This document shows positions 1,375-25,953 of a stretch of 34,285 nt of DNA, piece after piece. The stretch's first letter is position 1. Every line of letters begins with the position of its first letter. Where the stretch lies: contig JAFGWG010000065.1 of the NCBI GenBank assembly GCA_016937255.1, forward strand, positions 1-34,285. The letters run 5' to 3'. The stretch comes from Bacteroidales bacterium (GTDB lineage Bacteria > Bacteroidota > Bacteroidia > Bacteroidales > DTU049). Both the position numbers and the translations under genes were made by a program. The notes under the pieces are model-generated. The model had not been told where the DNA came from and ran no database searches. It saw nothing but the letters and a program-made list of their open reading frames with translations.

Positions 1375-1398
1375 AAACCGCCTTCGGGCGGTTTTTTT
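1375..1398 (+). terminator. Rho-independent terminator of nfeD-floA
   Basis: Stem AAACCGCC / GGCGGTTT with a TTCG tetraloop, followed by a run of seven T. It sits 12 bases after the floA stop. The T-run overlaps the stop codon of the convergent murD-type gene (TAA read from 1399 to 1397), so the hairpin may also stop minus-strand transcription, though the tail on that side is not a clean T-run. Confidence 0.92.
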
Positions 1399-2782
1399 AT
1401 GCTCCTAAATCTCGCACTGCAGCTTTATACTGCTCGCCACGATCTTCGAAATTCTTAAACTGATCATAACTGCTGGCTGCAGGAGATAAAAGACAGGCTT
1501 TGCCTTCTTTGGTATGTTTGTATGCCATTTCAACTGCTTCCTGAATATTATAAGCATCAAATACTTTCTTGTGATGGTTGTATTTGCGCAGGGTGTTTTT
1601 TAATATCTGACCCACTTCTCCCATTAATATCAAATTGCTGACATTGCTAGAAATAAGGTATTGTACCAATTCTTCATATGCAATTCCACGATTGAATCCA
1701 CCCAAAATAAGACTATCGCACTTGGGAATAGATTCCAAAGCTGCAATACAAGCTTCGGGAATAGTTGCAATAGAATCATTATAAAACTCAATGCCTTTAA
1801 ATTGACCAAGAAATTCCAATCGATGAGGTAGAGGCTCAAAACTATACATGGCTTTCATGATTTCATTATCGTTTAATCCATATACTTCTGCAACCAGAAA
1901 AGCAGCACCCATATTAAGGCGGTTATGTTTTCCCTTAAGTTGAATCTTTTTATAATTGCTGCAAATGATACTTTCGCCATTATTATCTCGATAAAAAACA
2001 GAATTCTCGCCAAAACTTATGCTGTTTATGCCATCCAGTTTTAAACGCTGCGTATCAAAAACCTGAACCTTGGCTTTTAGGTCTTTTTTTGCAGCGGCAC
2101 ATTGATACAACTCGTTTGGCAATATTAAAATATCAGCTTTGTTTTGATGAAGTGCAATTTGCCATTTGGCTTCGGCATAATCTTCAAAAGACTTATAATG
2201 ATCAAGATGCTCCGGAAAAATATTCAGCAAAACTGAAATATGCGGCGAAAACCTGCAATGTTCAAGCTGGTGCGAACTCAATTCCAATACAAATATTCCA
2301 TTGTGTTTGTCGAGATAGTCGAAAATGGGGGAGCCTATATTTCCGGCCAGTATGCTGTTGTGCCCTGTTTCTTTAAGAATGTGATGAATCAGACTGCTTG
2401 TAGTGCTCTTTCCTTTTGTACCCGTAATTCCAATAACTCTTGCCCGAAAATACTGTAAGAATAATTCTGTTTGAGAAGTGACTTTATCATCATCTTTTAT
2501 ATTGGCCGTGAATTCTGTCATTGGAATACCCGGTGTTTTCAAAATTAAGTCAAACTCATCCGCTTTTTCTAAATACTCATGACCATGAAAAATGTTGCTT
2601 ATGGGGAAATTTTCAGGAATTCCCTTAAATGGTTCCGCGCTTTTGTCTGCCAAAAAAATCTGCTCGTTATTAAGGTGTTTGTGAAGAAAATTGAATGAAC
2701 TTTGTCCTTCACGACCAAAGCCTGCAATCAGAATTTTCTTATTCTGAAGATAACGTATAAAATCATTTAATTCCAAGGGCAT
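1397..2782 (-). CDS. murD: MurD-type ligase, probably MurD2 (UDP-MurNAc-L-Ala:L-glutamate ligase)
   Basis: A 461-residue Mur ligase. The N-terminal Rossmann motif AGFGREGQSS is at residues 20-29, the ATP-binding loop GITGTKGKSTTSS at 118-130, the metal/ATP motif ELSSHQLE at 167-174, NIFPEHLDHY at 187-196, KGKHNRLNMGAA at 283-294, and a C-terminal LLSPAASSYDQF block. All are standard for MurD, which adds glutamate to UDP-MurNAc-L-Ala in the cytoplasm. Two positions differ from what I know of D-Glu-adding enzymes: the usual DSKATN reads DSIATI (336-341), and the GGDGK motif reads GGFNR (361-365). The gene overlaps the MurL gene by 20 bases and is downstream of it. That pairing suggests MurD2, which adds L-Glu that MurL then epimerises. 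The family assignment is firm; L-Glu specificity is inferred from the neighbour and from the altered motifs. Confidence 0.87.
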   Translation of the reverse strand: MPLELNDFIRYLQNKKILIAGFGREGQSSFNFLHKHLNNEQIFLADKSAEPFKGIPENFPISNIFHGHEYLEKADEFDLILKTPGIPMTEFTANIKDDDKVTSQTELFLQYFRARVIGITGTKGKSTTSSLIHHILKETGHNSILAGNIGSPIFDYLDKHNGIFVLELSSHQLEHCRFSPHISVLLNIFPEHLDHYKSFEDYAEAKWQIALHQNKADILILPNELYQCAAAKKDLKAKVQVFDTQRLKLDGINSISFGENSVFYRDNNGESIICSNYKKIQLKGKHNRLNMGAAFLVAEVYGLNDNEIMKAMYSFEPLPHRLEFLGQFKGIEFYNDSIATIPEACIAALESIPKCDSLILGGFNRGIAYEELVQYLISSNVSNLILMGEVGQILKNTLRKYNHHKKVFDAYNIQEAVEMAYKHTKEGKACLLSPAASSYDQFKNFEDRGEQYKAAVRDLGA

Positions 2783-4175
2783 CTTTCAGTGTTCTTTCTG
2801 TTTTTGGGGGTAAAAAATGTTCGTTATTCCATTCCAATAATGCAGAATTCAGAATTCCTTTATCAAATGGATCAGCTTTTTGCAATAGTATCGGAATATC
2901 TTCTTCTGCAATTTTATATTGATCTAATGCTGCAGACATTGCAAGATTCACTTCCTCTGTTGTACCCACACACTCAAAAGGCTTTGCTTCCTTTTTTCCG
3001 CTGAGTTCATCAATGAATTCTTGTAGCGATGCGTCATTTAGAATATTTCGACCAATGATATTTCGTGTTTCTTCAGGACTTAAAAACGGGCTGATAATTA
3101 TGGATGCAAACAGGCATTTCGGACAATGACCACACCATTTATTTTCTTTGCTGCCTACATTACAGCTTCTAAAAATGGGATGGTAGGCAGGCATTTTGGC
3201 AAAGAGAGAGGCAATTTGTAATTCACTTATCGGGCGCAAAAAGCTGAAATACTCTGTTTCACTGGCGATATATTTCATGTAATACTGCCTAAAGTCGCTT
3301 TCAAATTCAAATGATTTAGAGTATTGATGATTGACATCGCTGCCTTTAACAGTGCTCTCATTGGCGCTACTTTCATTGCTCAGCGCAATATATTTGCTTC
3401 CTGTAATAATAGCTGCACTCAATGTATAAAAAGCCAGCATAGCACTAAATGGCGTATGACCGTTTAGAAATCCTTCAGCATTCATTTTCAAAAGCTGGGG
3501 ATCTATGGTTCTTTCAATTCTGATGAAATAATCTTCAGGAATACCGGCGGCAATAAGTGTATTTACAGTAGCACCCCGAGGATTAATGATGAGTGGGAGA
3601 ACGTCATATCCCGCATTTTTTAGCAATTCCAGTGTTACCGGCGAGTCTTTTCCACCACCAATGGGTACAATTACTTTTTGGGCATCGACTTTGAAGTTTT
3701 GAACCAAAACCGGTGCTGGCCCATGGCTCTCAATTTGAATAAAATCATTTTGAGTAGTGTTTATTCCATTGATATAAAAGAATTCGCCCAGACCCTGATA
3801 ATAAAGCTTTTTCCACCAATTTAATTGTTCGTTATCAAGTAGAAAATCTTTGATTATCAATTTGGGGGCGCAGGTAGATTTCCAATAGCTTATGAGTTCC
3901 ACCATGCCGCAGTGGAAGAAAATTTGTCTCAAATCTTGCTCTGAATGCAATATTTGAGCATTTATGCTGTTAAAATATAAGGTGACTTGTGGACTGAAGT
4001 GAAAATGATCATCAATAGTAAAGTGAAAACGGGCAGTCACTTTGTCAGTATCTTTGAAAATGTCGAAAGAATCGAAGCAGAAAGTGCTGTATTCTTCTCT
4101 CAGCTTCAGATATTTGTCATGATGTTGATAAATTTTCACTTTATGGAACAACTTTTGAAGTGTTTTACTTGTCAA
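2763..4175 (-). CDS. murL: UDP-MurNAc-L-Ala-L-Glu epimerase MurL
   Basis: A 470-residue protein that I recognise as MurL, the ATP-dependent epimerase known from Xanthomonas that converts the terminal L-Glu of UDP-MurNAc-L-Ala-L-Glu to D-Glu, replacing the need for free D-glutamate. Visible features are a PP-loop-like nucleotide motif VPIGGGKDSPVTLELL (170-185), GFLNGHTPFSAMLAF (235-249), LSNESSANESTVKGSDVNHQ (265-284), and a cysteine cluster C338...CGHCPKC (348-354) that may bind metal. No signal peptide or membrane segment is seen, as expected for cytoplasmic cell-wall precursor synthesis. Its 3' end overlaps the downstream MurD-type gene, so the two are probably translationally coupled. The start is TTG at 4175: an in-frame TAG lies eight codons upstream and there is no in-frame ATG between. 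It is divergent from yqgE with a 37-base gap. Family identification is from memory of its motifs and from context. Confidence 0.82.
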   Translation of the reverse strand: MTSKTLQKLFHKVKIYQHHDKYLKLREEYSTFCFDSFDIFKDTDKVTARFHFTIDDHFHFSPQVTLYFNSINAQILHSEQDLRQIFFHCGMVELISYWKSTCAPKLIIKDFLLDNEQLNWWKKLYYQGLGEFFYINGINTTQNDFIQIESHGPAPVLVQNFKVDAQKVIVPIGGGKDSPVTLELLKNAGYDVLPLIINPRGATVNTLIAAGIPEDYFIRIERTIDPQLLKMNAEGFLNGHTPFSAMLAFYTLSAAIITGSKYIALSNESSANESTVKGSDVNHQYSKSFEFESDFRQYYMKYIASETEYFSFLRPISELQIASLFAKMPAYHPIFRSCNVGSKENKWCGHCPKCLFASIIISPFLSPEETRNIIGRNILNDASLQEFIDELSGKKEAKPFECVGTTEEVNLAMSAALDQYKIAEEDIPILLQKADPFDKGILNSALLEWNNEHFLPPKTERTLKDALGIK

Positions 4176-5052: not shown

Positions 5053-6564
5053 TTACCCATTCATCCCCACCAACTCCTCAATATATTCCCGGTGGTTGGC
5101 CAGACGTGGAATTTTGTTCTGTCCGCCGAGTTTGCCGCGTTTTTTCATCCAATCTATAAAGAGACCTGAACGGGCGATAATGAGTTCGGGCATGTCGAGT
5201 GTAGATCCGGGCTGTCGCTTGGCCTCGTAGTCGGAATTAAGTTTCTGCAGCTCGAGATCAAGGATTTTTGCAAATTCATCAAAGCTCTGTGGTTCTTTTG
5301 TAAATTCAATCAGCCATTGGTGGCGACCTTTGCTTTCGTCATCTATATATTTAGGCGCAGCGGTGTATTCGCTAATTATAGATTCGGTTTTGTCGCAAGT
5401 CTTTTTCAGCGCCCGTTCGGCATTGTCAATCATTAATTCCTCTCCAAAAGCGTTGATAAAATGCTTGGTGCGTCCTTTAATGATAATTTTATGCGGATAT
5501 AAAGAGGTGAATTCGATAGTATCACCAATCATATATCTCCATAAACCACCGGTGGTACTGATCACCACAGCATAAACTTTCCCAATTTCAACATCAGCAA
5601 CAGTAAGTGTTCGAGGTTTTGCCTTGTCGATGTCTTCAAATGGAATAAACTCATAAAAGATTCCATAATCCATCATAAGAAGCATCGATGAGTCGTTTAG
5701 GTCATCCTGAATGGCGAAAAATCCTTCCGAAGCATTATAGGTTTCAATATAATTCATGCCGGGTGCAGGAAGTATTTTTTTGTATTGCTCACGGTAAGGT
5801 TCAAAGTTGATTCCTCCGTGTACAAAAACTTCCAAATTAGGCCAAATTTCATGGATATTGTCTTTTCCGGTAGTCTCCAGAATATACTTAAGCATGATAA
5901 GGTTCCACGAAGGAACACCCACAATACTGGTTACATTTTCATTGATGCTCACCTCGGCAATGCGTTGTATTTTTTCGTCAAATTCATCAATGAGGGCAAT
6001 GCTTGCATCCGGAGTGCGCTTTAGATCGAGGAAGAAAGGTACATTTTCTATGTAAATGGCTGAAAGATCACCCACGCGCGATTGATCATTGATGGGATTT
6101 ACCTGATGGGATCCACCTAAAGTCAAACCCTTGCCCGTGTAGATTTTGCTTTCGGGAACACTATCGGTATAAAGAACGAAAACATCCTTTCCGCCTTTAA
6201 AATGCGATTCTTCTAAAGAATCTTTGCTCACGGGAATATACTTGCTTTTTTCATTGGTAGTGCCCGAAGATTTGGCAAACCATTTTACATCGCGGGGCCA
6301 GAGAATATTACTTTCACCTTTCATCATGCGATGGATAAATGGATATAGGTCTTCGTAAGAGGAAATCGGAACCCTGCTTTGAAATTTCTCAATGGAATCG
6401 ATGCTGCGGAAATCGTACATTTTTCCGAATTCGGTTTTGTCGGCTTTCCAAATAAGGTAATTGAAAGTTTCTTCTTGGTAATAAAACGGATTATGTCTGA
6501 TATCATCAATTTGATTCAGTCGCTTTAGGTTAATCCATGATATTAGTGAATTAATTATCGGCAT
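5053..6564 (-). CDS. GH3-family (auxin-responsive promoter type) acyl-adenylating enzyme
   Basis: A 503-residue member of the GH3 fold, a branch of the ANL adenylating superfamily named after plant enzymes that join amino acids to acyl acids. The three nucleotide-binding motifs are present: SSGTTNEKSKYIP (99-111), YNASEGFFAIQ (276-286, matching the Y-x-x-S-E motif) and LWRYMIGDTIEF (341-352). A hinge-like GRTKHFINAFGEEL follows at 364-377 before the small C-terminal domain. Bacterial GH3 proteins are common in Bacteroidota but their substrates are mostly unknown, so ATP-dependent activation of a carboxylic acid is all that can be claimed. No signal peptide is seen. A TAnnTTTG box lies 18 bases before the ATG. 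It is a single gene, convergent with yqgE and divergent from ppdK. Confidence 0.9.
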   Translation of the reverse strand: MPIINSLISWINLKRLNQIDDIRHNPFYYQEETFNYLIWKADKTEFGKMYDFRSIDSIEKFQSRVPISSYEDLYPFIHRMMKGESNILWPRDVKWFAKSSGTTNEKSKYIPVSKDSLEESHFKGGKDVFVLYTDSVPESKIYTGKGLTLGGSHQVNPINDQSRVGDLSAIYIENVPFFLDLKRTPDASIALIDEFDEKIQRIAEVSINENVTSIVGVPSWNLIMLKYILETTGKDNIHEIWPNLEVFVHGGINFEPYREQYKKILPAPGMNYIETYNASEGFFAIQDDLNDSSMLLMMDYGIFYEFIPFEDIDKAKPRTLTVADVEIGKVYAVVISTTGGLWRYMIGDTIEFTSLYPHKIIIKGRTKHFINAFGEELMIDNAERALKKTCDKTESIISEYTAAPKYIDDESKGRHQWLIEFTKEPQSFDEFAKILDLELQKLNSDYEAKRQPGSTLDMPELIIARSGLFIDWMKKRGKLGGQNKIPRLANHREYIEELVGMNG

Positions 6565-9985: not shown

Positions 9986-10867
9986 CTATTCTATCACCAA
10001 CCTCCTACTAAACTCACTATTAGCTGTCTGAACCTCTAGAACATAAATACCAGCTTTCAGATTAGAGGTATTCAGCGTTTTTTCGGATAATCCCAGGCTA
10101 TATGACGCATATACTTCTTGCCCAAGAACATTTCTGATCGAAATTCTGCAATTCTCCATTGGCAAATTCTCAATGATTAGATAATCTTGTGCGGGATTGG
10201 GGTAGATATTTAAGTTGCTCCAAAACTCATTGATACCAACATCTTCGTATGTGCAGTATGGAACAATCCCGGTTTCAAATAATCCTAAAGAATCATCACT
10301 GTAACATCTGAGATTACCGTTCAGCGGATCACAAGCAAAATACTGAGGAAAGAAATACGCATGAAGAGGGCCAATTTTTTCTACAATCGTATCAACACCC
10401 CAGAACCAATTATTACCTGTTGTGTTTACAACTATATATTTCAGTGTATCACCATTTATTATTTTTTGTCCGTTTCCAGTGACATTTACTTTAACAGTAT
10501 CACTAGAAATGGATTCATTAGGCGTGAAACTCCACGACTCACCTGGGTTAATGTTCATATTAAACAGTGTGTCAAATTCTAATGAGTCATTATGAAATAT
10601 TTGAACAACACCATTTTCTTCATGTAAAATCACTTCTAAACCCAGACAATCGCATGGATAGCAGTTCTTGGTAAGAATATAACAATCTTTCCCTTGAACC
10701 ACAGTATCACGCAAAGCATTCATGTGACAGTATGAGTTGTAATATCCCGAAACAGGATCAAATTTAATGCTTCCATAGTGCCATTGTGCCTTTCCTTCAA
10801 ACCAATCTTGGCCATTTGAGTGTAGCGATAGTAAAAAGAGTATGCCAATAAATGCTATTATTCTCAT
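9986..10867 (-). CDS. Small secreted protein with T9SS C-terminal sorting domain
   Basis: A 293-residue exported protein. It begins with a signal peptide (MRIIAFIGILFLLSLHSNGQ, cut likely after about residue 19). The middle (20-215) matches no domain I recognise; it has several cysteines (NCYPCDCLG), repeated Asp/Thr-rich strands and two closely spaced tryptophans. The last 75 or so residues are a T9SS sorting domain: IYPNPAQDYLIIENLP, then ISIRNVLGQEVY, then LNTSNLKAGIYVLEV, ending SRRLVIE. T9SS exports such proteins across the outer membrane and often anchors them at the surface. Its ATG directly abuts the stop codon of the upstream 1434-residue gene, so the two form one transcription unit. 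Its tail is nearly identical in DNA to that gene's tail. Confidence 0.85.
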   Translation of the reverse strand: MRIIAFIGILFLLSLHSNGQDWFEGKAQWHYGSIKFDPVSGYYNSYCHMNALRDTVVQGKDCYILTKNCYPCDCLGLEVILHEENGVVQIFHNDSLEFDTLFNMNINPGESWSFTPNESISSDTVKVNVTGNGQKIINGDTLKYIVVNTTGNNWFWGVDTIVEKIGPLHAYFFPQYFACDPLNGNLRCYSDDSLGLFETGIVPYCTYEDVGINEFWSNLNIYPNPAQDYLIIENLPMENCRISIRNVLGQEVYASYSLGLSEKTLNTSNLKAGIYVLEVQTANSEFSRRLVIE

Positions 10868-11086
10868 TTATTCAATTATGAGTTTAGACACTTTTTCATT
10901 CTTTCCTTCGATATGAATGAAGTAGATTCCAGAAGTCAGATTGCTAGTTTTTAGTGTTGTTTGTTTAGCTCCATATGTGAAACTAACAAATACCTCCTGC
11001 CCAAGAACATTTCTGATCGAAATCCTACAATTCTCCATTGGTAGACTATCAATGATTAGATAATCTTGTGCAGGGTTAGGGTAGAT
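10120..11086 (-). repeat. Near-identical T9SS tail segments in two adjacent genes (10120-10207 and 10999-11086)
   Basis: Two 88-base segments, each encoding YPNPAQDYLII through NVLGQE of a sorting domain, match at 79 of 88 bases without gaps (counted by eye), while the flanking coding sequence diverges. Both are direct repeats in the same frame. The pattern suggests recent copying or gene conversion of the sorting tail between neighbours. Confidence 0.85.
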
Positions 11087-14000
11087 TAGGATGCTATTGT
11101 TTTCTGAATCTGAAATTCCAGTGCAGTTTGTGTATGTAATCACAATAGTATCGGTACTCATACATCCGTTTGCAGAGAAATCGACAAATAATGTGTCAGT
11201 TCCGTAGCCGCCAGTAAAGCTGGAATCAAGCGAAACAATTTGTGTGGTATCTCCGGTGGACCAATTATATGAATCGGCTCCAGCTCCGGCATCGAGTACG
11301 AGCGTTTGACCATCGCAAAGTGTGGTATCTGAGGGAAGTCCGCTTGTATGATACCCAAATGAGTGAACAGTGAAAAGTAGAGTGTCGTTATTAGCATCCA
11401 CATCATTTGCATATTCTAAAATGATTTCAAAATCGTAATCCATGGGATAAACTGTCATATCAGCCAAGGAATCAAAGGTGTGATACATGAAATCATTAGG
11501 AAGAATGTCTGCGGTTAGAATTAGAGTGTCAATTTGCAGGAGTGAGCTGTTCATTTCTGCATGGAATATCAGTGTGTCGCCGGTTGGAATAGTTTCAACC
11601 GCATTTGTGTTTTGTATCTTAATAGTAACAGTTTCCATATTGTGCTCACACGCATCTATTGGAGAAGTAAGTGAATCCATGGCAATATCTATGGAAGGCA
11701 CTTCGTATACATGAAAATCATCAAAAGCGAAGCCGTCGAGCATATTGGTTGTGGTATCTGAGTTGAATACAAAACGGAATTTCACCCATGGCTCACCAGC
11801 AAGCATGAATAATTCATGACGTGCCATTTGCCAGGTGCTTTGAGAAGTTCCGCTCCAGCCCGTGCTGTCGGTAAACCAGTTCAGCGTATCGCCCATCTGT
11901 CCGATCGGGTTCCAGAGCATACCATCAAGGGTGTATTCAAATGAAGTGATATCAGCTGTTGTATCGCTGTTTACCCAGTACATGAAGTCGACCTGCGGAC
12001 GACCGAGTGCAGAGAAATCAAAACAAGGACTTTCAATAAAACTGGAAACTGTATCAGCGTAGAAACCTGAAGCACAGGTTGAATAAGCCAGAGAAGAACT
12101 AAAAGCTGAATTTATGGTCATTCCTGCCGGCGTTCCGTGCTCCCAGTTTTTATCCTGCGGAGCCCAGAGTTGTGCAGTAGCATCTACATCATCGAAAAAC
12201 GGATAAGCATTTACCAGCGGCTGGCTGATTATGGTTATTTCTGCAGTATCGTTGTTTGTGTTTACATCACCAGGAATTTGTGCTGCCACAATAATGTGAT
12301 ATGGTCCCGGAGTGCTGAAATCGTAAGTCTGACTTGTTGTGAAAGCTGTTGTGTCATTCGGTAAAACAGAAAAGAAAATGGTGTCATTAGTCCAGCCCAA
12401 GCCACCGTCAATAGATACAATAATCGGAATAGAATCGGCCGTCATAGTACCGTAGTTTGCAATATCTCCACTGATATAATCTGTTCCCAAACCGCAGCCT
12501 GATTGTGGGGCATCGATGGAAATGATGGCTGCTTCAATTCCACGTTCTTCAATATGCACATTATCGAATGCAAAGCCATCGTCGTTATTAAATGCATTTG
12601 CACCAAAATGTACTCTAAGTTTTGCTCCGGGATAAGAAGTCAGACTTTGTAAAGAATGCTCCACCGTAATCCAACCGCCACTACCGTTGGCGTTATTTCC
12701 GGTCCAACCATCGGCATTACTTGCTATTCCATTCACATCCATATCGTTGTACCAGTTGGGCTCACCATAGAACCCAAGTACTTGCCAGCTTGCTCCGCCA
12801 TCGACCGAATATTCAATATTTGCTCCATCCCAACTACTTTCTGCTTCGTACCAAATGTCTAGCTCCAGCCAAGGATCACTCATTCCGTATAAATCAAAAC
12901 AAGGACTGATGACAAAACTGTTTTCATTAAAATTACAATCTCCAGAAAGATTGGTAACCCAGGCTTGTGTTCCGTCTGATGCAGAATTTATGGTAGGATT
13001 TGCAGGTGCTCCAAGTGCCCAGCTGTTGTTTGTTCCGCTACTATTCCAATTTCCTGGCCCTCCTTCAAAGCTCTCACTATAAGGGAATGTTGTAATAGTT
13101 AGGTAGCTGATTACAGAAGAATTTGCTTCATCGTTTGTTGCATTTTCATCGGTTGCAAGTTGAGCGCGTACTGCCAAATTGTAGCTATTTGGAACCGCTA
13201 AATTTGCAGTTGCAATGAAAGTATAGTCAAGAGTGTCGCCTGAAGGGATTGAATCTAGTAACTCTAGAGTTGACCATGAGCCTCCACCATCGGTTGAAAA
13301 TTGCACAGGTATATTGTATTCATCAGAACTGGCATTATTATAAAATCTTGCAGTGATCTGCTCCATTGCACTCAATCCGCATGAGCTCATGGGAGAAAGA
13401 ATTTCAAGTGTTGCAATATCGTGGGTTAGCAATTCATATTCATCGGCGCCCATATCTGGGTTGGTGGCGTTGCGCGGGTCATCTTCAATATCTGTTGTTA
13501 CAAAAGCGTAGGGTGTGCCAAGACCATTAAGCGCTGCATTGGTGAAGTGAACATCGTTTGAACCTGTAAATACAGGATCGATATTTACGGAATTCACGTC
13601 AAAACCGAGTGAGAAAACTGTTGCTTGCCATGCCGAAAGATCCGTCTGATTCACACTGCTATATTTTCCTAAGTATGAACCATTTACTAAATAATCGTTA
13701 TAGTTTAATTGAGAAATGTAATGCTGACTTACTGCTCCAGATGAAATTTCAATGGCATATCCTCCTCCATGGTTTTCGAAAATATTATTCAGAATTTTTA
13801 TGTTGCCATAAGTTCCTGATATAGATGAATTTACATACAATGCTCGACCGCCTGTTGTACTACCACTTTTCACTCTAATTGTATTATAGGCAATGTCTAC
13901 GTACTCACAATTGTGAGGATAAATGGCACTCAAAGAAGAGGTGTTATTATCCTGAACAATGAAATTATTGCTGAGCAAAACGGGTTGAGATACAGTTCCA

Positions 14001-15172
14001 ATTACCTCTCTTAGATAAATTAAATCTCCGGCTGCTCCATCTGCATAAATACTATTGCGAGAAATACGAATGGCGTCTTTGGAGTAGCGCATGTAAATTC
14101 CACTGAAATTGTTGGTCACTACATTAGTCTCCACCACGTTGCTGTCAATAATCGTATTGCTTTGATTGTACATAAACATAGCCGATACATACTGGTTTTT
14201 GAAATAATTACATTGAATGGTAATAGAATCTTCAGTCATTAGGGAAGAAGCTCCATACAAATACATCCCATAAGCACCATTTTCAAAGCTATTGTACTCA
14301 AAAACGCTTAATGAATCATTGGTTTCTAGCCCTGGATTTGAATAGATCAAGGCGAGCGTATTGTTATTGGTTGTGGTTGGGTCACCAATGAGTCGTAGGT
14401 GATGATAATGATTATACGCAGAAGTGCTATCTATCATTAATACACGGCCGTATAATACTCCACCGGTAGATTGTAAACTAAGATGTTCAAGTGTAAAATA
14501 GGAAGTTGCATTAATGGCAAAAGTATAATTGTCTGCTGCTCCTGTTGGCGTATGAGTTATTAATACCGCAGCACTATCTTGTGATTGAGATCTGAAGATA
14601 ATATTGTTTGTTTCAGAAACGCCATGAACACGATTAATCATTGCATTTTCGTTGTAGGTTCCATCAGCAATTTCAAAAATTACTGGACCGCAAACTCCAC
14701 CGAGTGATAGTGTATCGGCAGCTCCTGAAATGCTTTGAAAATTGTTTCCTATTGCTGGCATAACTGGGTTAATGGTGTAAATCCCACTGAATGAAACGAA
14801 AATCATAGTTCTGATGGTATCATTGTGTAGGGCGGTATCTGCAGAATCGAGCCAAATTATAACTTCGTAAGCCCCGGGACGAGTCAAGAGAAATGTATCA
14901 AGGCGAACGGTATCATTTGCACCTGAGGCAATTGCTGAGCTTGGTGCTGTTGTGCTTTCGTTAATGCCATTGCTCACAGTCCAATTAATATTGAGAGCTC
15001 CGGGAGCAATTCCGGTCATTCCAGAATCACAAAGCAAAACTCTGAGCTCTACTGTTGCTCCAAGACAATAGTATTGAGAATCAGGAACAATTTTGGTTAA
15101 AGCGTAGTCTTGTGAAAAAGCTTGAGAAATTCCACTTAATAATAAAAGAAGAGAGAGTAATAATTTATTCAT
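10868..15172 (-). CDS. Large T9SS-secreted beta-helix protein with repeated adhesin-like domains
   Basis: A 1434-residue surface or secreted protein. Signal peptide at 1-20 (LLLSLLLLLSGISQAFSQ). Residues about 130-570 form a right-handed parallel beta-helix rich in Asn turns, closing with the common NPDMGADEYE motif near 571-580. After that come three CARDB-like beta-sandwich segments starting near 582 (HDIATLEILSPMSSCGL), 893 (IISIDAPQSGCGL) and 1165 (DIAMDSLTSPIDAC). The first two are each followed by a MAM/jelly-roll-like unit beginning FPYSESFEGG near 696 and YPFFDDVDATAQLW near 989. A further Ig-like piece (CDGQTLVLDAGAGADSYNWS) precedes the T9SS tail (YPNPAQDYLII ... VSKLIIE). The modular build suggests binding to cells or polymers; no catalytic motif is seen. 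Its ATG overlaps the sirtuin stop by 8 bases and its stop abuts the next T9SS gene. Domain limits are approximate. Confidence 0.86.
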   Translation of the reverse strand: MNKLLLSLLLLLSGISQAFSQDYALTKIVPDSQYYCLGATVELRVLLCDSGMTGIAPGALNINWTVSNGINESTTAPSSAIASGANDTVRLDTFLLTRPGAYEVIIWLDSADTALHNDTIRTMIFVSFSGIYTINPVMPAIGNNFQSISGAADTLSLGGVCGPVIFEIADGTYNENAMINRVHGVSETNNIIFRSQSQDSAAVLITHTPTGAADNYTFAINATSYFTLEHLSLQSTGGVLYGRVLMIDSTSAYNHYHHLRLIGDPTTTNNNTLALIYSNPGLETNDSLSVFEYNSFENGAYGMYLYGASSLMTEDSITIQCNYFKNQYVSAMFMYNQSNTIIDSNVVETNVVTNNFSGIYMRYSKDAIRISRNSIYADGAAGDLIYLREVIGTVSQPVLLSNNFIVQDNNTSSLSAIYPHNCEYVDIAYNTIRVKSGSTTGGRALYVNSSISGTYGNIKILNNIFENHGGGYAIEISSGAVSQHYISQLNYNDYLVNGSYLGKYSSVNQTDLSAWQATVFSLGFDVNSVNIDPVFTGSNDVHFTNAALNGLGTPYAFVTTDIEDDPRNATNPDMGADEYELLTHDIATLEILSPMSSCGLSAMEQITARFYNNASSDEYNIPVQFSTDGGGSWSTLELLDSIPSGDTLDYTFIATANLAVPNSYNLAVRAQLATDENATNDEANSSVISYLTITTFPYSESFEGGPGNWNSSGTNNSWALGAPANPTINSASDGTQAWVTNLSGDCNFNENSFVISPCFDLYGMSDPWLELDIWYEAESSWDGANIEYSVDGGASWQVLGFYGEPNWYNDMDVNGIASNADGWTGNNANGSGGWITVEHSLQSLTSYPGAKLRVHFGANAFNNDDGFAFDNVHIEERGIEAAIISIDAPQSGCGLGTDYISGDIANYGTMTADSIPIIVSIDGGLGWTNDTIFFSVLPNDTTAFTTSQTYDFSTPGPYHIIVAAQIPGDVNTNNDTAEITIISQPLVNAYPFFDDVDATAQLWAPQDKNWEHGTPAGMTINSAFSSSLAYSTCASGFYADTVSSFIESPCFDFSALGRPQVDFMYWVNSDTTADITSFEYTLDGMLWNPIGQMGDTLNWFTDSTGWSGTSQSTWQMARHELFMLAGEPWVKFRFVFNSDTTTNMLDGFAFDDFHVYEVPSIDIAMDSLTSPIDACEHNMETVTIKIQNTNAVETIPTGDTLIFHAEMNSSLLQIDTLILTADILPNDFMYHTFDSLADMTVYPMDYDFEIILEYANDVDANNDTLLFTVHSFGYHTSGLPSDTTLCDGQTLVLDAGAGADSYNWSTGDTTQIVSLDSSFTGGYGTDTLFVDFSANGCMSTDTIVITYTNCTGISDSENNSILIYPNPAQDYLIIDSLPMENCRISIRNVLGQEVFVSFTYGAKQTTLKTSNLTSGIYFIHIEGKNEKVSKLIIE

Positions 15173-15917
15173 TGCGCAGTGTTTTTATTTCGTGAATGAG
15201 TTTGGTTATGATTTCGCCTGCTTTTCCTTGCAGGAAAATATCATTGGATGCGTGGGCGTAAATATTGTCGTCGGTATTAATCTCAATAATTTGTGCACCT
15301 TTATTTTTGGCTAGATGAGGAATCATAGAGGCGGGCATTACTTCGCCGGAAGTTCCAATAATGAGAAGAAGATCGGCGCTTTCAGCTTCGTGCACCGATC
15401 TGGCATATGCAACTGGAGGAATACCCTCACTAAAGAAAATGAAATCTGGTTTTACAAGGCTATTGCAATGGTTGCATTGCACGGGTAGGGAAGAAAAGTC
15501 GATTTCGTTTTTATTGAATTTTTTGTTACAAGAAGTGCAAACAAGGGTTTGAGCTGTGCCATGAAATTCCACAACATCGGTATTTCCCGCTTCCTGATGA
15601 AGATTGTCAATGTTTTGAGTTATAACTGTTTTCAATAGCCCCATTTTTTCCAATTCTGCAAGTCCAATATGAGCTACATTTGGATCGGCTTTGCCAAAAA
15701 AGTCGTAAAATAATTTATGAATGACGGTCCATGCTTCGAGTGGGTTTTGATGAAAATAGTCGAGGTCGAGAACAATAGGATCGTAAGTATTCCATAGCCC
15801 GCCTTCACCACGAAATGGCGGAATGCCGCTTTCTACGGAGATTCCGGCCCCTGTAAAAGCATTGAGATGACTTGAATGAAGTATTTTTTGAGCTGCCTCA
15901 GTAATATATTTATCCAT
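15165..15917 (-). CDS. Sir2-family NAD-dependent protein deacylase (sirtuin)
   Basis: A 250-residue sirtuin when started at the ATG at 15917; a longer frame to 15965 would add 16 residues ahead of the conserved fold. Sirtuins remove acyl groups from protein lysines using NAD+. The key motifs are GAGISVESGIPPFRG (23-37), TQNIDNLH (100-107), the catalytic His119 in EFHG, zinc ligands C127/C130 and C148/C151, and the NAD-binding GTSGEV (188-193). The Tyr-x-x-Arg pair that marks desuccinylase-type (SIRT5/CobB class) enzymes is not visible in VIHKLFYDFF, so deacetylation is the safer guess. A TAnnTTTG box sits just 5 bases before the 15917 ATG. The stop overlaps the start of the giant T9SS gene by 8 bases, implying coupled translation, a strange pairing with no obvious functional link. 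Confidence 0.93.
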   Translation of the reverse strand: MDKYITEAAQKILHSSHLNAFTGAGISVESGIPPFRGEGGLWNTYDPIVLDLDYFHQNPLEAWTVIHKLFYDFFGKADPNVAHIGLAELEKMGLLKTVITQNIDNLHQEAGNTDVVEFHGTAQTLVCTSCNKKFNKNEIDFSSLPVQCNHCNSLVKPDFIFFSEGIPPVAYARSVHEAESADLLLIIGTSGEVMPASMIPHLAKNKGAQIIEINTDDNIYAHASNDIFLQGKAGEIITKLIHEIKTLRNE

Positions 15918-15922
15918 CTGAA

Positions 15923-15930
15923 CAAATATA
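15923..15930 (-). promoter_or_regulatory. Putative -7 box of the sirtuin/T9SS unit
   Basis: Reads TATATTTG on the minus strand, an exact TAnnTTTG, only 5 bases before the ATG at 15917. If real, the mRNA would have almost no leader, and it favours 15917 over 15965 as the start. No clear TTG at the -33 distance. Confidence 0.4.
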
Positions 15931-15965
15931 TGAAAGAATCTTGAATATTTAGAGTATTTTGACAT

Positions 15966-15989
15966 AAAAAAAGCCGCATCTCTGCGGCT
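15966..15989 (-). terminator. Rho-independent terminator of the 16.0-18.1 kb unit
   Basis: On the minus strand AGCCGCA, loop GAGA, TGCGGCT, then a T-run of seven. It lies 33 bases beyond the stop at 16023 and just before the sirtuin promoter region, cleanly separating the two transcription units. Confidence 0.9.
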
Positions 15990-16022
15990 AATTGTATATT
16001 AAATCAATTAAGTAATGCGATC

Positions 16023-17444
16023 TTATTTTAATTTAAACGTATCCAGATTCCAGGGAGCGGCTGCAGTTTTGGGGACAGGAGCAATATCGTATTTTGATGC
16101 ATAGCGACCTTCACCAAAATAAGAATCGTAGTATGCCTGAAGACGTCGGTTGGGGAGATGTATTTCAGGATTCATCTCGCGGTCAATTTTATTGGGCCCG
16201 AACATGCTAAAATTCCCACGTTTTGTAATAATCTCTTGAGGAAGATCATTAAAAGGTTTACAGTGGTCGTAGACTTCCAGCACAAGAAATTCAATATATT
16301 CCTGAGAATACCCGAGGTAATTGCTTTTAATTTCCCAAAGAAATGTTTCATGATTAAATATATCGTGGAAACTTAACCCAAAATACTTTTGAAATAATTT
16401 CTCTCTTTCTTTAAAAACGCCTGGTCTCATTTTTTGAGTGTCTATACAGGCTTGTTTTGGGTTAGGTGCCATAGACCATGGTTCTATGAAAGGAGCAAAT
16501 GAGCAATAAGCCAAACTCCAGAAATCGAGGTCCCAAAGTAAGTTCTCCCAGTATCTTTTGATCTTATCCCATTTTTTAATTTGCGGTTCAAGTTCGCGAT
16601 CGATATCGTCGTTTACTAATGAAAGTTCACGAGTATTAGGTACGTTAAACTTATTTTTGGCGGCCATATCGTCGAAAGCTTTCAATTTTCTGCGTTCTTT
16701 TTCGATATGTAATGGTGAAACCATCATGGCTTGTGCAAAATTCATAAGGTATTCTTGACCGTCGCGCTGCACAGCGGTACCTTCAGCGGCTTTATCGAGT
16801 CCTTTTTCGATCTGAATGCGAAGGAAATTGGGTAATGTCATACCTGGCTCTTCTCCTAAATCAATAAGAGCTTGAATTGGTTTAATAATTTTCTCAGGGT
16901 TACTAAGAACTTCCACTTCTACTGAACTGTCGAAAGCAGCAGGTTTTTTCTTTAGGGTTTCTTCAATATTTTTTTCACCCTGTTTTTTCATTTTTTCTGC
17001 ATCAGATGCAGACACAGCACCTGTACGTTGCATATAATCAAGTCCCATTTGCTGTTCGGCATTTGGATCGTGACTTCCGGCAAGCTTAATGGCTTCCTCA
17101 TAGCTTCTTTTTAACTCAGAAATAGAGTTTCTTAATGCATCAAGTACTAATTTTAGTAAATTTTCATCGCTGTAATTGGAATCATCGCTATTGAGTTCTT
17201 CATTTGCTTGGGCACTTAATGCTCTTAAATAATAATCGCTGATATTGGTATAAATACCCTCATTCATTACTGCGGCATTGAAGGCATTATAATCGTCGTG
17301 TTCTTGGCCAAGTTGCTCAAGTCGATTATAAGCAGTTACAAGGTTGTCAAAATGCTCTCCACTGATATTTTTGCTCTTGCAATCTTCCACCATGTTTTTA
17401 AATGGAGTAAGCATGGGATCCAGCATCATTTTATCTATAGGCAT
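16023..17444 (-). CDS. Conserved-looking hypothetical protein, 473 aa, second gene of a two-gene unit
   Basis: I do not recognise this protein. It has no signal peptide, membrane helix or T9SS tail, so it should be cytoplasmic. Residues 1-130 are predicted to be mostly helical (NISGEHFDNLVTAYNRLEQL, then NLLKLVLDALRNSISELKRS). Residues 130-180 are Lys/Glu-rich and probably extended or coiled. The second half has an aromatic stretch near 298-320 (KRYWENLLWDLDFWSLAYCS) followed by FAPFIEPWSM, then KYFGLSFHDIF and EIKSNYLGYSQEYIEFLVLE, and a Pro/Ala-rich end. It starts 12 bases after the stop of the upstream unknown gene and is closed by a strong terminator. Well-formed codons over 473 residues and its tight operon argue that it is real. 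Function cannot be assigned. Confidence 0.78.
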   Translation of the reverse strand: MPIDKMMLDPMLTPFKNMVEDCKSKNISGEHFDNLVTAYNRLEQLGQEHDDYNAFNAAVMNEGIYTNISDYYLRALSAQANEELNSDDSNYSDENLLKLVLDALRNSISELKRSYEEAIKLAGSHDPNAEQQMGLDYMQRTGAVSASDAEKMKKQGEKNIEETLKKKPAAFDSSVEVEVLSNPEKIIKPIQALIDLGEEPGMTLPNFLRIQIEKGLDKAAEGTAVQRDGQEYLMNFAQAMMVSPLHIEKERRKLKAFDDMAAKNKFNVPNTRELSLVNDDIDRELEPQIKKWDKIKRYWENLLWDLDFWSLAYCSFAPFIEPWSMAPNPKQACIDTQKMRPGVFKEREKLFQKYFGLSFHDIFNHETFLWEIKSNYLGYSQEYIEFLVLEVYDHCKPFNDLPQEIITKRGNFSMFGPNKIDREMNPEIHLPNRRLQAYYDSYFGEGRYASKYDIAPVPKTAAAPWNLDTFKLK

Positions 17445-17456
17445 AATTCTTCGTTT

Positions 17457-18113
17457 TTAACGGTTAACAAGTGTTTTGTATAATTGAATTTGTTCCTGAA
17501 TATGTTCATCAGAGAATGGCAAAAGCCTTCTATGCCGATATTCAAGATTTTTCTCGGGAATGAGCCGCCAGCCGGCTTGCCATTCATGGTTGTTCTTCTC
17601 AGCAGCTTCCACTCCTTTTTGCATGGATTGTACAACCTCGGCACATGTTTCTTCCATACGACTTTTATAATTGTCGGGAACTACTGCGTTTTTGTACATA
17701 AGGTATGTGTCTAGTTGATCCCAGTCATAAATAAACTCCTGATGAGCTTCATCCATGGAAATTTCAATGCTGTTTTTGTTAAGAATATCAGTAACTAAAT
17801 TGGTGACATCCAATGCTACTTTGCATTCATCTACCTGTTCTAGAATTCTCTGAGGCCCCAGTATTCTGACAATTTCCTGATGTTTCTCAAAGTGTGCTTC
17901 ATCCATAATAGACTGGTCTTTTATGAGTGCTACCGCACAACGTTCATTTAAGTCGCCAAGTTTTTCCTTGAACTCTTCCAGAACTGCACATGATTGCATG
18001 GCATCAGAGACTTTCTTTTCCGCTTCGTACGAATGTTTGTACTTTTCATTGCCTGCAAATCGTTCGGCCCGAGTTGCGTAATAGGCTTTGTAATCTTGTA
18101 GTAAATCTGACAT
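17457..18113 (-). CDS. Hypothetical protein, about 218 aa, first gene of a two-gene unit
   Basis: Not recognised. The protein is charged and appears almost wholly helical, with heptad-like stretches (YEAEKKVSDAMQSCAVLEEF, HFEKHQEIVRILGPQRILEQ) and no signal peptide or membrane segment. The C-terminal third has KNNHEWQAGWRLIPEKNLEY, RHRRLLPFSDEHI and QIQLYKTLV. I place the start at the ATG at 18113: a TTG 21 bases upstream (18134) is possible, but it lies inside an exact TAAATTTG promoter box, so the ATG is more likely. It is followed 12 bases later by the 473-residue gene, and a terminator of the preceding unit lies upstream, so these two genes form an isolated two-gene unit whose products probably act together. 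Confidence 0.75.
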   Translation of the reverse strand: MSDLLQDYKAYYATRAERFAGNEKYKHSYEAEKKVSDAMQSCAVLEEFKEKLGDLNERCAVALIKDQSIMDEAHFEKHQEIVRILGPQRILEQVDECKVALDVTNLVTDILNKNSIEISMDEAHQEFIYDWDQLDTYLMYKNAVVPDNYKSRMEETCAEVVQSMQKGVEAAEKNNHEWQAGWRLIPEKNLEYRHRRLLPFSDEHIQEQIQLYKTLVNR

Positions 18114-18131
18114 ACTAATGAATTTTATCGC

Positions 18132-18139
18132 CAAATTTA
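18132..18139 (-). promoter_or_regulatory. Putative -7 box of the 16.0-18.1 kb unit
   Basis: TAAATTTG on the minus strand, an exact TAnnTTTG, 18 bases before the ATG at 18113. No good TTG at the usual upstream distance, so the call rests on one element plus the position just after a terminator. Confidence 0.5.
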
Positions 18140-18172
18140 ATATTCAAAGGGATATAAATCACGGTATTTAAC

Positions 18173-18203
18173 AAAAAAAGCTACTGATATTTGGTCAGTA
18201 GCT
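18173..18203 (-). terminator. Rho-independent terminator of the C10 protease genes
   Basis: On the minus strand AGCTACTGA, 7-base loop, TCAGTAGCT, then seven T. It lies 38 bases beyond the stop of the 690-residue protease. Confidence 0.9.
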
Positions 18204-18240
18204 CATTTTTATTTGTGAGTAAGTAGTTTTTCAGGGTGAA

Positions 18241-20313
18241 TTATTTGAAGAATTTTAGTGTTTTCTTAATTTCGGTATTTGATATGGTACAAAAATACAT
18301 TCCATTGCTTAAGGATGATGTGTTCAGATTGATTGTGCTGGACGAAGATAAAATTGAGATTTTTCTCTGGGAAATTGTTCTACCAGTAATATCAGTTAGA
18401 CTTATTGAATATTCACCTTCAGGGAAAGAATTAACTTGTAGATATTGATTATCTCCATCGGCGAAAACATATATACTAAGATTGCTATTTTCTTCAATGC
18501 TGCTCGCAAGAGAATTATAATTGAATGAAAATCCATTTTGAGCAGTTGAACTATTGGTCTTAAAGAGAACCATTACTTGAGGTGAATTGATGTAGAATGT
18601 TTGTGGAATATTGGCACCACTAAATGTTGAAATTAAAGCGTAAGATCCACCGCTGTAATCATAAAAGTCGAGGAAATCTTGATTATCTTCTAGGGTAAAT
18701 TCAGTGAAATTAAATTGAATTGCAGCTGCTCCTGCTGGTTCAAGTTTCCATCTGCACATCGTATTATTATTGTATGGAAAAGAATTGCTGCCATCGCTAA
18801 CTGTACCTGAGGGAGTATACAAGAAACTCAAATTATTACAAAATATAGGTACATTCCCATAATAATCGAGGAGGAAGCCCTGGTTGGTAATAGAAGAATT
18901 GGATTCGAATGTAATAAACACTTCTTTTGCGTTGACACTTAAATCATTAGGGATGGAATCTCCACTATATGATCCGATTAAGATTCCGTTGGTATCGTCT
19001 CCTTCATAAATGCTTAAAATATCATTGCCCGATTCCGTCTTAAAACGTTTAAAATCGATATCAATTCTTGAAACAGTGTCTGTTGGATGAATATACCACG
19101 AACAACTTTGATCATTTAAGTAATTTGCAGAACTATTTCCTGAGGAAATACTACCACTGCGACTTTGCATATTGTAATTTCCACAAGCAAAAGGATATGA
19201 AGCTGATGATGGGTAACAGTTAATAAATGCTTGTTGCCCACTTGAGAAATTATAACCCGGGTTCAAATTATTGATATAAAAATACCCGTTATAATAGCCA
19301 CTCCAACCCCAATTGAAGTGAAATAAGTCTCCATCATATCCGTCGCAAACAAAAGCATGACCGCTACTAACATCATAGCCAGCATAAGGAATGGGATAAC
19401 CTGCATCTAATTGCCCTTTTAAGAGATTTTTCCAGTTGGTTTCAGTATAATCATCCTTATAATCAAGGCTAGCAGAAGAATTATAACCAAAAAAAGTCTT
19501 CATGGCAGCTAATGTTGTGTTCATATATGCACCTGACCCATACGGACTGTAGTTCATGTCGATTGCTACGCCACAATCATAGAGCAATTTTGCAACATCA
19601 TAATTTTCGTATATGAGTTTAGATGGCATTTGCTGATAATTATAGTTTGATTGGCTGAAATTTACACTTAAATATCCATAATTCGAACTATATCCATGAG
19701 AGCCTGTGCCAACTGTAGGGTATCTATAATAATACATTGTCATTCCCATCATTGTTGCAACGCATCCAGCATATACGCGACCAGCTGGACCATCGGGATC
19801 TTCAGGACAAAGTGCATTGTAGTAACCTCCCTGATCCCATTCGCAGTTAAGCAAAGGTTCTACAACAGCTGGTTTAGGATTGTCATAAGAGCCATCCAAT
19901 AAATCAGCCCACATTTGTGAAGTAACTGCATCAGCTTGAACGTTATTTGCTCTAATGTATTCAATTTGCTCAACATAACTAGCAAGCATATCTTCCATTT
20001 GTACGGGAACTTCATACTCACCAAAGGGATTTGAATAAGAATATCCCAATACAGGATAAGCGGCATCGTCTCCACTTATTATAATGAAACCATCATTATT
20101 GATATTGAAAACATAAAGCGCTGTTTCAGTGCCAGTATTGCTTTTAATAGCACTATGTTGCGTTAATGCAAAGGGCTTGCCTGCTATAGATCCGTCATGT
20201 TGTGAAAGCAGGAATGAGTGTGCCGCATTCAAAGCCTTATCAGAGCTAATTGGCTTGGCAAAAATACTAAGTGCAAAAAATGCAAAAAGTAGAAATATTG
20301 TAGTTTTTCTCAT
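18241..20313 (-). CDS. C10-family (streptopain-like) cysteine protease with two CUB-like domains
   Basis: A 690-residue secreted protease. Signal peptide 1-19 (MRKTTIFLLFAFFALSIFA). An N-terminal propeptide of the Spi/C10 type (about 22-150, with ALYVFNINNDGFIIISGDDA) precedes the catalytic domain (about 155-390). The active site is Cys184 in YAGCVATMMG and His319 in SGHAFVCDGY, with the supporting HFNWGWSG (332-339). Two CUB-like domains follow (about 400-500 and 505-610), each with a CSWYI/CRWKL strand and an FxxNSS...GF ending. The last 75 residues keep the strand pattern of a T9SS sorting domain (ISLTDITGR, LSNGMYFCTIS, KTLKFFK) but have lost the YPNP opening. It is 42 bases downstream of a paralogous protease in the same orientation, so probably co-transcribed. 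Expected role: extracellular protein degradation, activated by propeptide removal. Confidence 0.92.
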   Translation of the reverse strand: MRKTTIFLLFAFFALSIFAKPISSDKALNAAHSFLLSQHDGSIAGKPFALTQHSAIKSNTGTETALYVFNINNDGFIIISGDDAAYPVLGYSYSNPFGEYEVPVQMEDMLASYVEQIEYIRANNVQADAVTSQMWADLLDGSYDNPKPAVVEPLLNCEWDQGGYYNALCPEDPDGPAGRVYAGCVATMMGMTMYYYRYPTVGTGSHGYSSNYGYLSVNFSQSNYNYQQMPSKLIYENYDVAKLLYDCGVAIDMNYSPYGSGAYMNTTLAAMKTFFGYNSSASLDYKDDYTETNWKNLLKGQLDAGYPIPYAGYDVSSGHAFVCDGYDGDLFHFNWGWSGYYNGYFYINNLNPGYNFSSGQQAFINCYPSSASYPFACGNYNMQSRSGSISSGNSSANYLNDQSCSWYIHPTDTVSRIDIDFKRFKTESGNDILSIYEGDDTNGILIGSYSGDSIPNDLSVNAKEVFITFESNSSITNQGFLLDYYGNVPIFCNNLSFLYTPSGTVSDGSNSFPYNNNTMCRWKLEPAGAAAIQFNFTEFTLEDNQDFLDFYDYSGGSYALISTFSGANIPQTFYINSPQVMVLFKTNSSTAQNGFSFNYNSLASSIEENSNLSIYVFADGDNQYLQVNSFPEGEYSISLTDITGRTISQRKISILSSSSTINLNTSSLSNGMYFCTISNTEIKKTLKFFK

Positions 20314-20355
20314 ACGAATGATTGGTTTGGAGTATAAAGATACGTCAATATTTAC

Positions 20356-22437: not shown

Positions 22438-22464
22438 ATGTCGATTGTTTGGTTTATGGATAGA

Positions 22465-22472
22465 CAAAAATA
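22465..22472 (-). promoter_or_regulatory. Putative -7 box of the C10 protease genes
   Basis: TATTTTTG on the minus strand, an exact TAnnTTTG, 27 bases before the ATG at 22437. The nearest TTG lies only 14 bases upstream of it, which is short. Confidence 0.48.
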
Positions 22473-22732
22473 ATTGAATAATGTTGCAAGCCCATGAAAA
22501 TCTTTGTAAAATTATGTTTATTTATCTGTTTGAATACACGTTTTTATACCTGAAAATTTAATTATTGTTGCCACGAACCAATAGCTTTTGTTAGTAAATC
22601 CTCATACAAGATTCAATCGTCGTCCGCCAACAGTAATAGGTTTGCAGATGACATCGATGCGTTGTATAATGCAGTAAATATATGGTATTGTTCGTGTTGA
22701 CGATCTCATGATCTCCAGTTGGTCGAACGATG

Positions 22733-22750
22733 AGAGGTCAACTTGGCTTT
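22733..22750 (-). repeat. Dispersed repeat AAAGCCAAGTTGACCTCT, copy 1 (inverted)
   Basis: On the minus strand these 18 bases are identical to 32656-32673 on the plus strand. After a stretch present only here (about 25 bases), the similarity resumes: GAGATCGTCAACACGA here versus GAGAGCGTCAATACGA there. The shared element is therefore longer than 18 bases but diverged. Both copies lie in gene-free spacers. Confidence 0.75.
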
Positions 22751-22895
22751 CTTAATCCGTTGTAAGGTCTATGACATTCCTTTTTTATCCAAACTGGGTA
22801 GATATTATTCCCTCAAGGATAAAAAATATAGATGGGGACAAAATCTTTTGTTATTTTCGCATATTATTGAATATTAAAGCAGAAAACACCAATCG

Positions 22896-24149
22896 ATGAA
22901 GACCATTATACACAATATAAAAGAGCTTTATGTGCTGGAAGACAGTCCGTTTCAACATCCATATTCTGGAAAGCAAATGGCCGACCTCAGAAGTTTAAAA
23001 AATGCATACCTGATTATTGACAATGAAAGAATAGAATCTTTTGGTTTGATGGATAATCTTTCAGATGATCTGAATTTATTTGCAAAAGCAATTGATGCCA
23101 CTGGTAAAATGGTTATGCCCGGATTTTGCGATTCACATACCCATATTGTCTTTGCAGGCTCTCGCGAAGCTGAATTTGTAGATAAAATAAATGGTCTTTC
23201 TTACGAAGAAATTGCCCGTCGTGGTGGTGGAATACTAAATAGCGCAAGGCGTCTGCAAACTACCTCTGAAGATGAATTGTATGAAGCTGCTGCAAAGCGC
23301 CTCAATGAAGTTATTTTACACGGTACAACAGCCATTGAAATTAAAAGTGGCTACGGCCTTACATATGAGAGTGAGTTGAAAATGCTTCGTGTGATAAAAA
23401 GACTCAAAGAGAATTTTCCAATTACCATAAAAGCAACTTTTCTAGGCGCTCATGCTATTCCACGCGAGTACCGGGACAATAGAAAAGCATATATTGATTT
23501 GGTAATCAATATAATGCTGCCCGATGTTGCTGCTCAAAAACTGGCAGATTATATCGATGTATTTTGCGATGAAGGTTTTTATACTGTGGAAGAAACAGGC
23601 CAAATATTGGAAGCTGCAGCAAAGTTTGGTATTAAACCAAAGATACACGCCAACGAATTGGCCAATAGTGGTGGGGTTCAGGTCGGAATTAAACATAATG
23701 CCATTTCAGTAGATCACCTCGAAAAGATAGATACTGAAGAAATTTTGGCGCTGAAAAATAGCAATACCATTCCTACTGCACTTCCGGGTGTATCTTTCTA
23801 TTTGAAAATACCTTTTGCACCGGTACGCAAAATGATTGATTCCGGATTACCTGTTGCATTGGCTTCAGATTTTAATCCCGGCTCATGCCCAAGCGGAAAC
23901 ATGCAGTTTGTAATGTCGCTTGCATCTATCTACGGCGGACTTCTGCCTGAAGAAGCACTTCATGCGGTAACCATTAATGGTGCGTGTGCTATGGAGCTTC
24001 AACAAGAGTATGGCTCTATCTGCCCGGGCAAATTTGCCAATCTTATTATCACCAAAGAAATTCCAAGTCTTGCATATATGCCTTATTATTATGGGTTCAA
24101 TAAAATTGATTCTGTAATGATTAAGGGTGATATTTACCATGAGAAATAA
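22896..24149 (+). CDS. hutI: Imidazolonepropionase
   Basis: A 417-residue amidohydrolase, usual length for HutI. It opens the ring of 4-imidazolone-5-propionate to give N-formimino-L-glutamate in histidine breakdown. Metal and substrate motifs: MPGFCDSHTHIVFAGSREAE (74-93, with His81 and His83), RRGGGILNSAR (109-119), GTTAIEIKSGYGLTYESELK (about 142-161), FLGAHAIPREY, HANELANSGG, and the late metal Asp in LASDFNPGSCPSGNMQ. Cytoplasmic. It is followed after 12 bases by the formiminotransferase gene, which uses its product, so they form an operon. HutH and HutU, the first two steps, are not in the window. Confidence 0.97.
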   Translation: MKTIIHNIKELYVLEDSPFQHPYSGKQMADLRSLKNAYLIIDNERIESFGLMDNLSDDLNLFAKAIDATGKMVMPGFCDSHTHIVFAGSREAEFVDKINGLSYEEIARRGGGILNSARRLQTTSEDELYEAAAKRLNEVILHGTTAIEIKSGYGLTYESELKMLRVIKRLKENFPITIKATFLGAHAIPREYRDNRKAYIDLVINIMLPDVAAQKLADYIDVFCDEGFYTVEETGQILEAAAKFGIKPKIHANELANSGGVQVGIKHNAISVDHLEKIDTEEILALKNSNTIPTALPGVSFYLKIPFAPVRKMIDSGLPVALASDFNPGSCPSGNMQFVMSLASIYGGLLPEEALHAVTINGACAMELQQEYGSICPGKFANLIITKEIPSLAYMPYYYGFNKIDSVMIKGDIYHEK

Positions 24150-24161
24150 AAACCAAATATT

Positions 24162-25853: not shown

Positions 25854-25953
25854 GACTGTTGTACTGTTTCCCACGAAGAACGTAAGGGTAAGCGCACAGA
25901 GTTTTATTAGCCACGGATACTACGGCTTGCACAGCACAGGTACATGGTTGAGA

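Follow-up and report, generated by a model that had tools for sequence, protein, structure and literature searches.

How does a bacterium in which no glutamate racemase can be recognised obtain the D-glutamate (D-Glu) of its peptidoglycan? The question is raised by two overlapping genes, murL and murD2, in a stretch of 34,285 nucleotides from a Bacteroidales bacterium (GCA_016937255.1, contig JAFGWG010000065.1, positions 1–34,285), here called the window. The route to D-Glu by the ligase MurD2 and the epimerase MurL was previously described in some Proteobacteria and rare actinobacteria (PMC8788868). With a probability of about 90%, we hold that this pair is the D-Glu route here, and the only recognisable one, and that it replaced glutamate racemase once, long ago, in the history of a Bacteroidales lineage. 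This reading draws on homology, diagnostic residues, the failure to find the racemase MurI or a D-amino-acid transaminase in the genome, the lack of any surveyed genome with both MurL and MurI, the inheritance of the pair, and the retention and truncation of the canonical murD. That gene has stayed in the division cluster, at full length or as its C-terminal part alone, and may have been kept for a second, non-catalytic product.

The probable MurD2-MurL pair and its host genome

An earlier note on this DNA had proposed a MurD2-MurL pair in a Bacteroidota, based on two open reading frames (ORFs) overlapping by 20 bases and on the motifs GGGKDS, NGHTPFSA and CGHCPKC. The frames, overlap and motifs were found exactly as described, on the minus strand (Table 1), and the proposal is borne out by profile matches, diagnostic residues, a second murD and the failure to find murI or a D-amino-acid transaminase. 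The 470-residue protein matched the MurL model NF041275 with an E-value of 3.5e-74 (249.9 bits over 386 positions, under the cut-off of 700) and the MurL of Xanthomonas sacchari with 34% identity over 326 residues (E 1e-60). The 461-residue ligase matched the MurD model TIGR01087 with 361 bits (E 9e-108) and X. sacchari MurD2 with 26% identity across 480 columns. In X. sacchari the two genes likewise overlap by 20 bases (L159 5136–5155), and this recurrence, together with the two profile E-values, argues that the pairing is not due to chance. By its sequence the 470-residue protein is very probably a divergent MurL. The NF041275 cut-off is apparently tuned to Xanthomonadales, since X. sacchari MurL scores 836 bits and the tested MurLs of Bacteroidales and Saccharibacteria 234–258; a threshold of 700 would miss all of the latter.

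Overlaps of 4–47 nucleotides between murL and murD2 were found in most relatives with both genes on one contig, and in two Bacteroidales relatives the genes are fused into one ORF of 937 (L148 79–2892) or 876 amino acids (L252 1264–3894). Open frames of 889 and 921 amino acids in two further relatives suggest fusion there too. The two genes lie apart in G200 (L097, L131) and G209 (L106, L056), and at the rumen loci L016–L024 no murD2 was seen within the stretch covered.

Mutagenesis of Xanthomonas oryzae MurD2 has established that Glu197 and Arg358, corresponding to Asp182 and Lys348 of Escherichia coli MurD, determine the preference for L-glutamate (L-Glu), and the K319T variant of E. coli MurD accepts L-Glu (PMC8788868). 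At the positions of E. coli D182, K319 and K348, the window ligase departs from the canonical Asp/Lys/Lys pattern and carries Glu/Ile/Arg, the identical set to that of X. sacchari MurD2, while the other MurD of the same genome (L094 8919–10256) fits the canonical pattern. Among 24 Bacteroidales pair ligases, Glu was found in 23/24, Ile in 24/24 and Arg in 23/23, and all 33 full-length division-cluster MurDs of the first set had Asp/Lys/Lys. These L-Glu-type residues mark the window ligase as a probable MurD2, which would ligate L-Glu.

In an alignment of 19 MurLs from Bacteroidales and Saccharibacteria the four cysteines C338, C348, C351 and C354 were invariant, and NGHTPFSA and CGHCPKC differed at just one or two residues; the cysteines are also present in X. 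sacchari MurL and may bind zinc by analogy with QueC. The discoverers of MurL reported no known domains in the protein, a reaction that converts ATP to AMP, and a proposed adenylation. A fair AlphaFold2 model of the window MurL (predicted local distance difference test 77, predicted template modelling score 0.81) had as its top structural matches QatC (Z 15.4, 4.4 Å, 313 residues) and QueC (Z 11.9, 3.3 Å, 180 residues), with further enzymes carrying the pyrophosphatase (PP) loop ranking below. Foldseek by itself yielded weak matches (best E 1.1e-3), and a PDB search by sequence returned only weak PP-loop and other matches. The predicted fold is thus that of the QueC/QatC N-type ATP pyrophosphatases, with which MurL shares an SGGxDS-like motif and a cysteine cluster; it fits ATP-to-AMP chemistry, and MurL may act by adenylation. 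QueC and QatC differ from MurL in substrate and reaction, and identity is about 11–13%.

The host genome (3.85 Mb, 96% complete) was searched with profiles for PF01177 racemases and for MurI (TIGR00067), and neither was found. No D-amino-acid transaminase was found either, the two Aminotran_4 proteins being the branched-chain enzyme IlvE and a PabC-like protein whose gene neighbours pabB. A second, canonical and full-length MurD is encoded between mraY and ftsW in the order ftsL-ftsI-murE-mraY-murD-ftsW-murG-murC-ftsQ-ftsA-ftsZ, with names given by similarity and synteny. The genome therefore shares the MurD gene of the canonical MurI and MurD route, and differs from that route in having no MurI or D-amino-acid transaminase that could be found. 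The likeness to X. oryzae MurD2 (XOO_1320) and MurL (XOO_1319) extends to gene order, L-Glu-type residues, PP-loop and cysteine motifs and a host without murI; as for the 20-base overlap, the likeness to the Xanthomonas system was observed in X. sacchari. The Bacteroidota host, the canonical murD kept whole or short in the division cluster and the occurrence of fused forms set the present system apart from that of Xanthomonas.

Distribution and inheritance of MurL

Within the order, MurL was found in 97 of 295 surveyed genomes and MurI in 179; none had both and 19 had neither. The MurL genomes cover 44 families, and no clear MurL was present among 197 other genomes of the phylum, where four weak partial matches were the only hits. 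PF01177 proteins in MurL genomes were considered as hidden MurI and rejected: one tested was of the RacX/Asp-Glu-racemase type (TIGR00035 200.5 bits, TIGR00067 23.7 bits), and none reached the TIGR00067 cut-off of 146.65. The route is now the apparent source of D-Glu in about a third of the sampled species of the order and its genes occur also in Saccharibacteria, which widens the range of a proposed narrow-spectrum drug target and serves as a warning that a missing murI in such genomes is real. One genome of the same order (G223, 98% complete) had no MurL, MurI or MurD above cut-off and possibly makes no ordinary peptidoglycan.

In a tree of MraY and FtsW from 45 genomes, the MurL genomes formed one clade with a Shimodaira–Hasegawa-like approximate likelihood ratio support of 100; a fragmented assembly without MurL (G203) fell within it. 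The Bacteroidales MurLs are themselves monophyletic, and the nearest among the compared sequences are those of Candidatus Saccharibacteria from rumen and gut (L025–L036), which have murL-murD2 pairs, mostly with a 4-base overlap, and about 36–41% identity to the window MurL. These two groupings point to inheritance of the pair within the order; a single gain at an early stage is the simplest account, and any transfer would be ancient. The position of the pair outside the cell-wall gene cluster, correctly described in the earlier note, had been taken there as a hint of acquisition by transfer, which these groupings do not support; recent horizontal acquisition within the order is ruled out by them, with the base left unsettled by a larger tree.

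Several observations weigh against the reading of MurD2-MurL as the D-Glu route that replaced glutamate racemase. The NF041275 score of the window MurL (250) is far below the cut-off of 700, and the pair shares only 26–34% identity with its Xanthomonas counterparts. At 96% completeness one missing gene proves little by itself, and a full-length canonical MurD has been retained with no known source of D-Glu. The exclusion of MurL and MurI stems from few evolutionary events among related genomes, so that its Fisher p of 4e-59 is an overstatement, and in a larger quick tree (120 genomes), weak in its basal branches, the MurL genomes do not come out as one clade.

The division-cluster murD and its short forms

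The murD of the division cluster was followed in 105 genomes, comprising 104 with MurL and G203. Of these genomes, 55 hold it at full length and 40 in a short form; in 3 a contig end interrupts a copy that looks full-length, 2 have none and in 5 the locus is unassembled. All 32 MurI relatives had a full-length gene. Eight apparent absences of MurD consisted of one contig end, five unassembled loci and two genomes of one family (f116; L250, L251), whose mraY has moved out of the division cluster (in L250 to a place next to murL) and which yielded no division-cluster murD; this is the sole apparent full loss. The short genes are open in 40/40, encode 176–199 amino acids (mode 182) and mostly begin 0–46 bases 3' of mraY. 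Their start is usually a conserved Met aligned to residue 264 in the MurD of the window's genome, exactly so in 27/40, and they match TIGR01087 positions of about 270–440, the C-terminal domain Mur_ligase_C. They thus differ from canonical MurD in standing alone at about 182 residues, without the UDP-binding and ATPase domains. In the open-access literature searched there was no report of a stand-alone MurD C-terminal protein, a truncated MurD, or MurL in Bacteroidales.

On the larger tree the distribution of murD forms needs 15 changes, and for the short form a minimum of 10 follows from branches with good support. For several short MurDs the closest sequence is the full-length one in the same family, or full-length and other short copies lie equally near; this speaks for truncation that recurred in place, at least about ten times. 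A single ancient lineage of short MurDs is disfavoured: the forms are intermixed within families, and most short MurDs with a full-length family relative resemble full-length copies at least as much as short forms from other families. The ratio of nonsynonymous to synonymous substitution rates (dN/dS, by NG86) was 0.04, 0.05 and 0.06 in the three closest pairs, and the short product is therefore a protein under selection.

Bacteroidota lack Shine-Dalgarno sites; their translation initiation is governed by the structure of the mRNA and by key bases, among them A at -3 (PMC6847099). Whether full-length murD holds a start at Met264 was addressed by tests devised after the short forms had been seen, with the MurI set and other gene regions as controls. 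Of the 18 bases 5' of Met264 in full-length murD copies from MurL genomes, 49% are A, as compared to 49–52% at real starts and 33% before other internal ATGs (p 1.6e-14), and the predicted structure is weaker (-1.5 vs -6.5 kcal/mol, p 3e-10). The excess of synonymous A-ending codons is concentrated at the same place: the 12 strongest of 438 windows of codons start at residues 252–265, and the top one comprises residues 264–271, the first eight codons from Met264 (z 9.2). For MurI genomes such windows are strongest at the true gene start, and the one just before Met264 ranks 296th. Counted by family, the excess was seen in 26/31 families of MurL genomes (p 0.0002) and in 11/23 of MurI genomes; the window genome's own murD gives a slight signal alone (4/6 vs 3.6 expected). 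It seems to us an even call that murD of the Bacteroidales that went from MurI to MurD2-MurL is a gene within a gene, in which an internal start at Met264 would yield a selected, non-catalytic C-terminal domain of about 182 residues, perhaps for MraY-MurG-FtsW assembly, and from which many species would have dropped the enzyme part. A structural role of this product is plausible by analogy, as MurD, MurE and MurF of Thermotoga are reported, in a work cited in PMC6420597, to bind MurG and MreB.

The principal rival to a sole MurD2-MurL route is that both routes run, the division-cluster MurD using salvaged or imported D-Glu for part of the precursor and MurD2-MurL supplying the rest, a possibility that we take seriously while leaning against it. 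All 55 full-length MurDs of the MurL lineage have intact the P-loop, the carbamylated-Lys position and the tested Mg and D-Glu residues; purifying selection acts on the N-terminal and middle parts of these proteins (dN/dS about 0.08–0.21), and some relatives have a RacX/Asp-Glu-type racemase. The rate ratio of these parts to the C-terminal part is 1.40 in MurL genomes vs 1.20 in MurI genomes, with overlapping ranges. Opposed to this are the 40 relatives that have lost the catalytic domains, where D-Glu ligation by MurD is dispensable, and the lack of any PF01177 racemase in the window's genome; RacX-like matches are weakly commoner with full-length than with short MurD (13/55 vs 4/40, p 0.11). 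The suggestion in the earlier note that the lineage carries both routes thus holds for the canonical MurD, which was retained, and fails for a known source of D-Glu, which was not. That the window ligase is merely a second ordinary, D-Glu-adding MurD whose partner is no epimerase would agree with its good TIGR01087 match, but is very improbable given the L-Glu-type residues across the whole ligase group, the fusion and overlap with MurL, and the finding of MurI in 0/97 MurL genomes.

Decay of the short MurDs into functionless pseudogenes is hardly credible. Several have lost D-Glu-binding residues (Lys354 is kept in 10/40), some are strongly diverged, and the genomes concerned are smaller (median 2.7 vs 3.5 Mb with full-length MurD, p 0.0013), but the low dN/dS, the uniformly open frames, mostly 0–46 bases after mraY, and the convergence of at least about ten separate truncations on one shape speak for a maintained product. 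The A-rich, unstructured stretch before Met264 could also mark an internal promoter for ftsW rather than a translation start. We regard this as unlikely, since the strongest synonymous-A window falls on residues 264–271, a start-type feature seen at the true gene start in MurI genomes, and short genes mostly begin at Met264. With the MurD2-MurL pair as the D-Glu route, what remains of murD amounts to a natural experiment in which catalysis has moved elsewhere, the catalytic domains have been lost repeatedly and the C-terminal domain has been kept between mraY and ftsW, and it makes the old question of structural roles of Mur ligases in the wall-synthesis complex directly testable.

Feature coordinates and neighbouring genes

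Table 1. Positions in the window of the pair, its motifs and its specificity residues.
Feature	Position	Strand	Remarks
murD2 ligase	1397-2782	minus	461 aa, ATG start; TIGR01087 match and L-Glu-type residues
MurD2 Arg365	1688-1690	minus	aligned to E. coli MurD K348 and X. oryzae MurD2 R358
MurD2 Ile338	1769-1771	minus	aligned to E. coli MurD K319
MurD2 Glu191	2210-2212	minus	aligned to E. coli MurD D182 and X. oryzae MurD2 E197
murL/murD2 overlap	2763-2782	minus	exactly 20 bases; likely translational coupling
murL	2763-4175	minus	470 aa, TTG start; NF041275 match, QueC/QatC-like AlphaFold2 fold
MurL residues 338-354 CNVGSKENKWCGHCPKC	3114-3164	minus	four cysteines, CGHCPKC at 348-354; putative QueC-like zinc site
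MurL NGHTPFSA, residues 238-245	3441-3464	minus	NGH, P and FS invariant in 19 MurLs
MurL GGGKDS, residues 173-178	3642-3659	minus	PP-loop for ATP, invariant in 19 MurLs; start of QueC/QatC-like domain

Around the pair lie the flotillin gene floA, at 335–1363, and an AlgH-type gene, past which, at 5053–6564, a GH3 protein resembling the lyso-ornithine lipid synthetase OlsH is encoded (425.6 bits, cut-off 620). Further along, 9986–28874 encodes a series of large secreted proteins bearing Por secretion tails, among them two C10 peptidases with CUB domains and one C25 (gingipain-type) peptidase; these proteins are likely cargo of type IX secretion.
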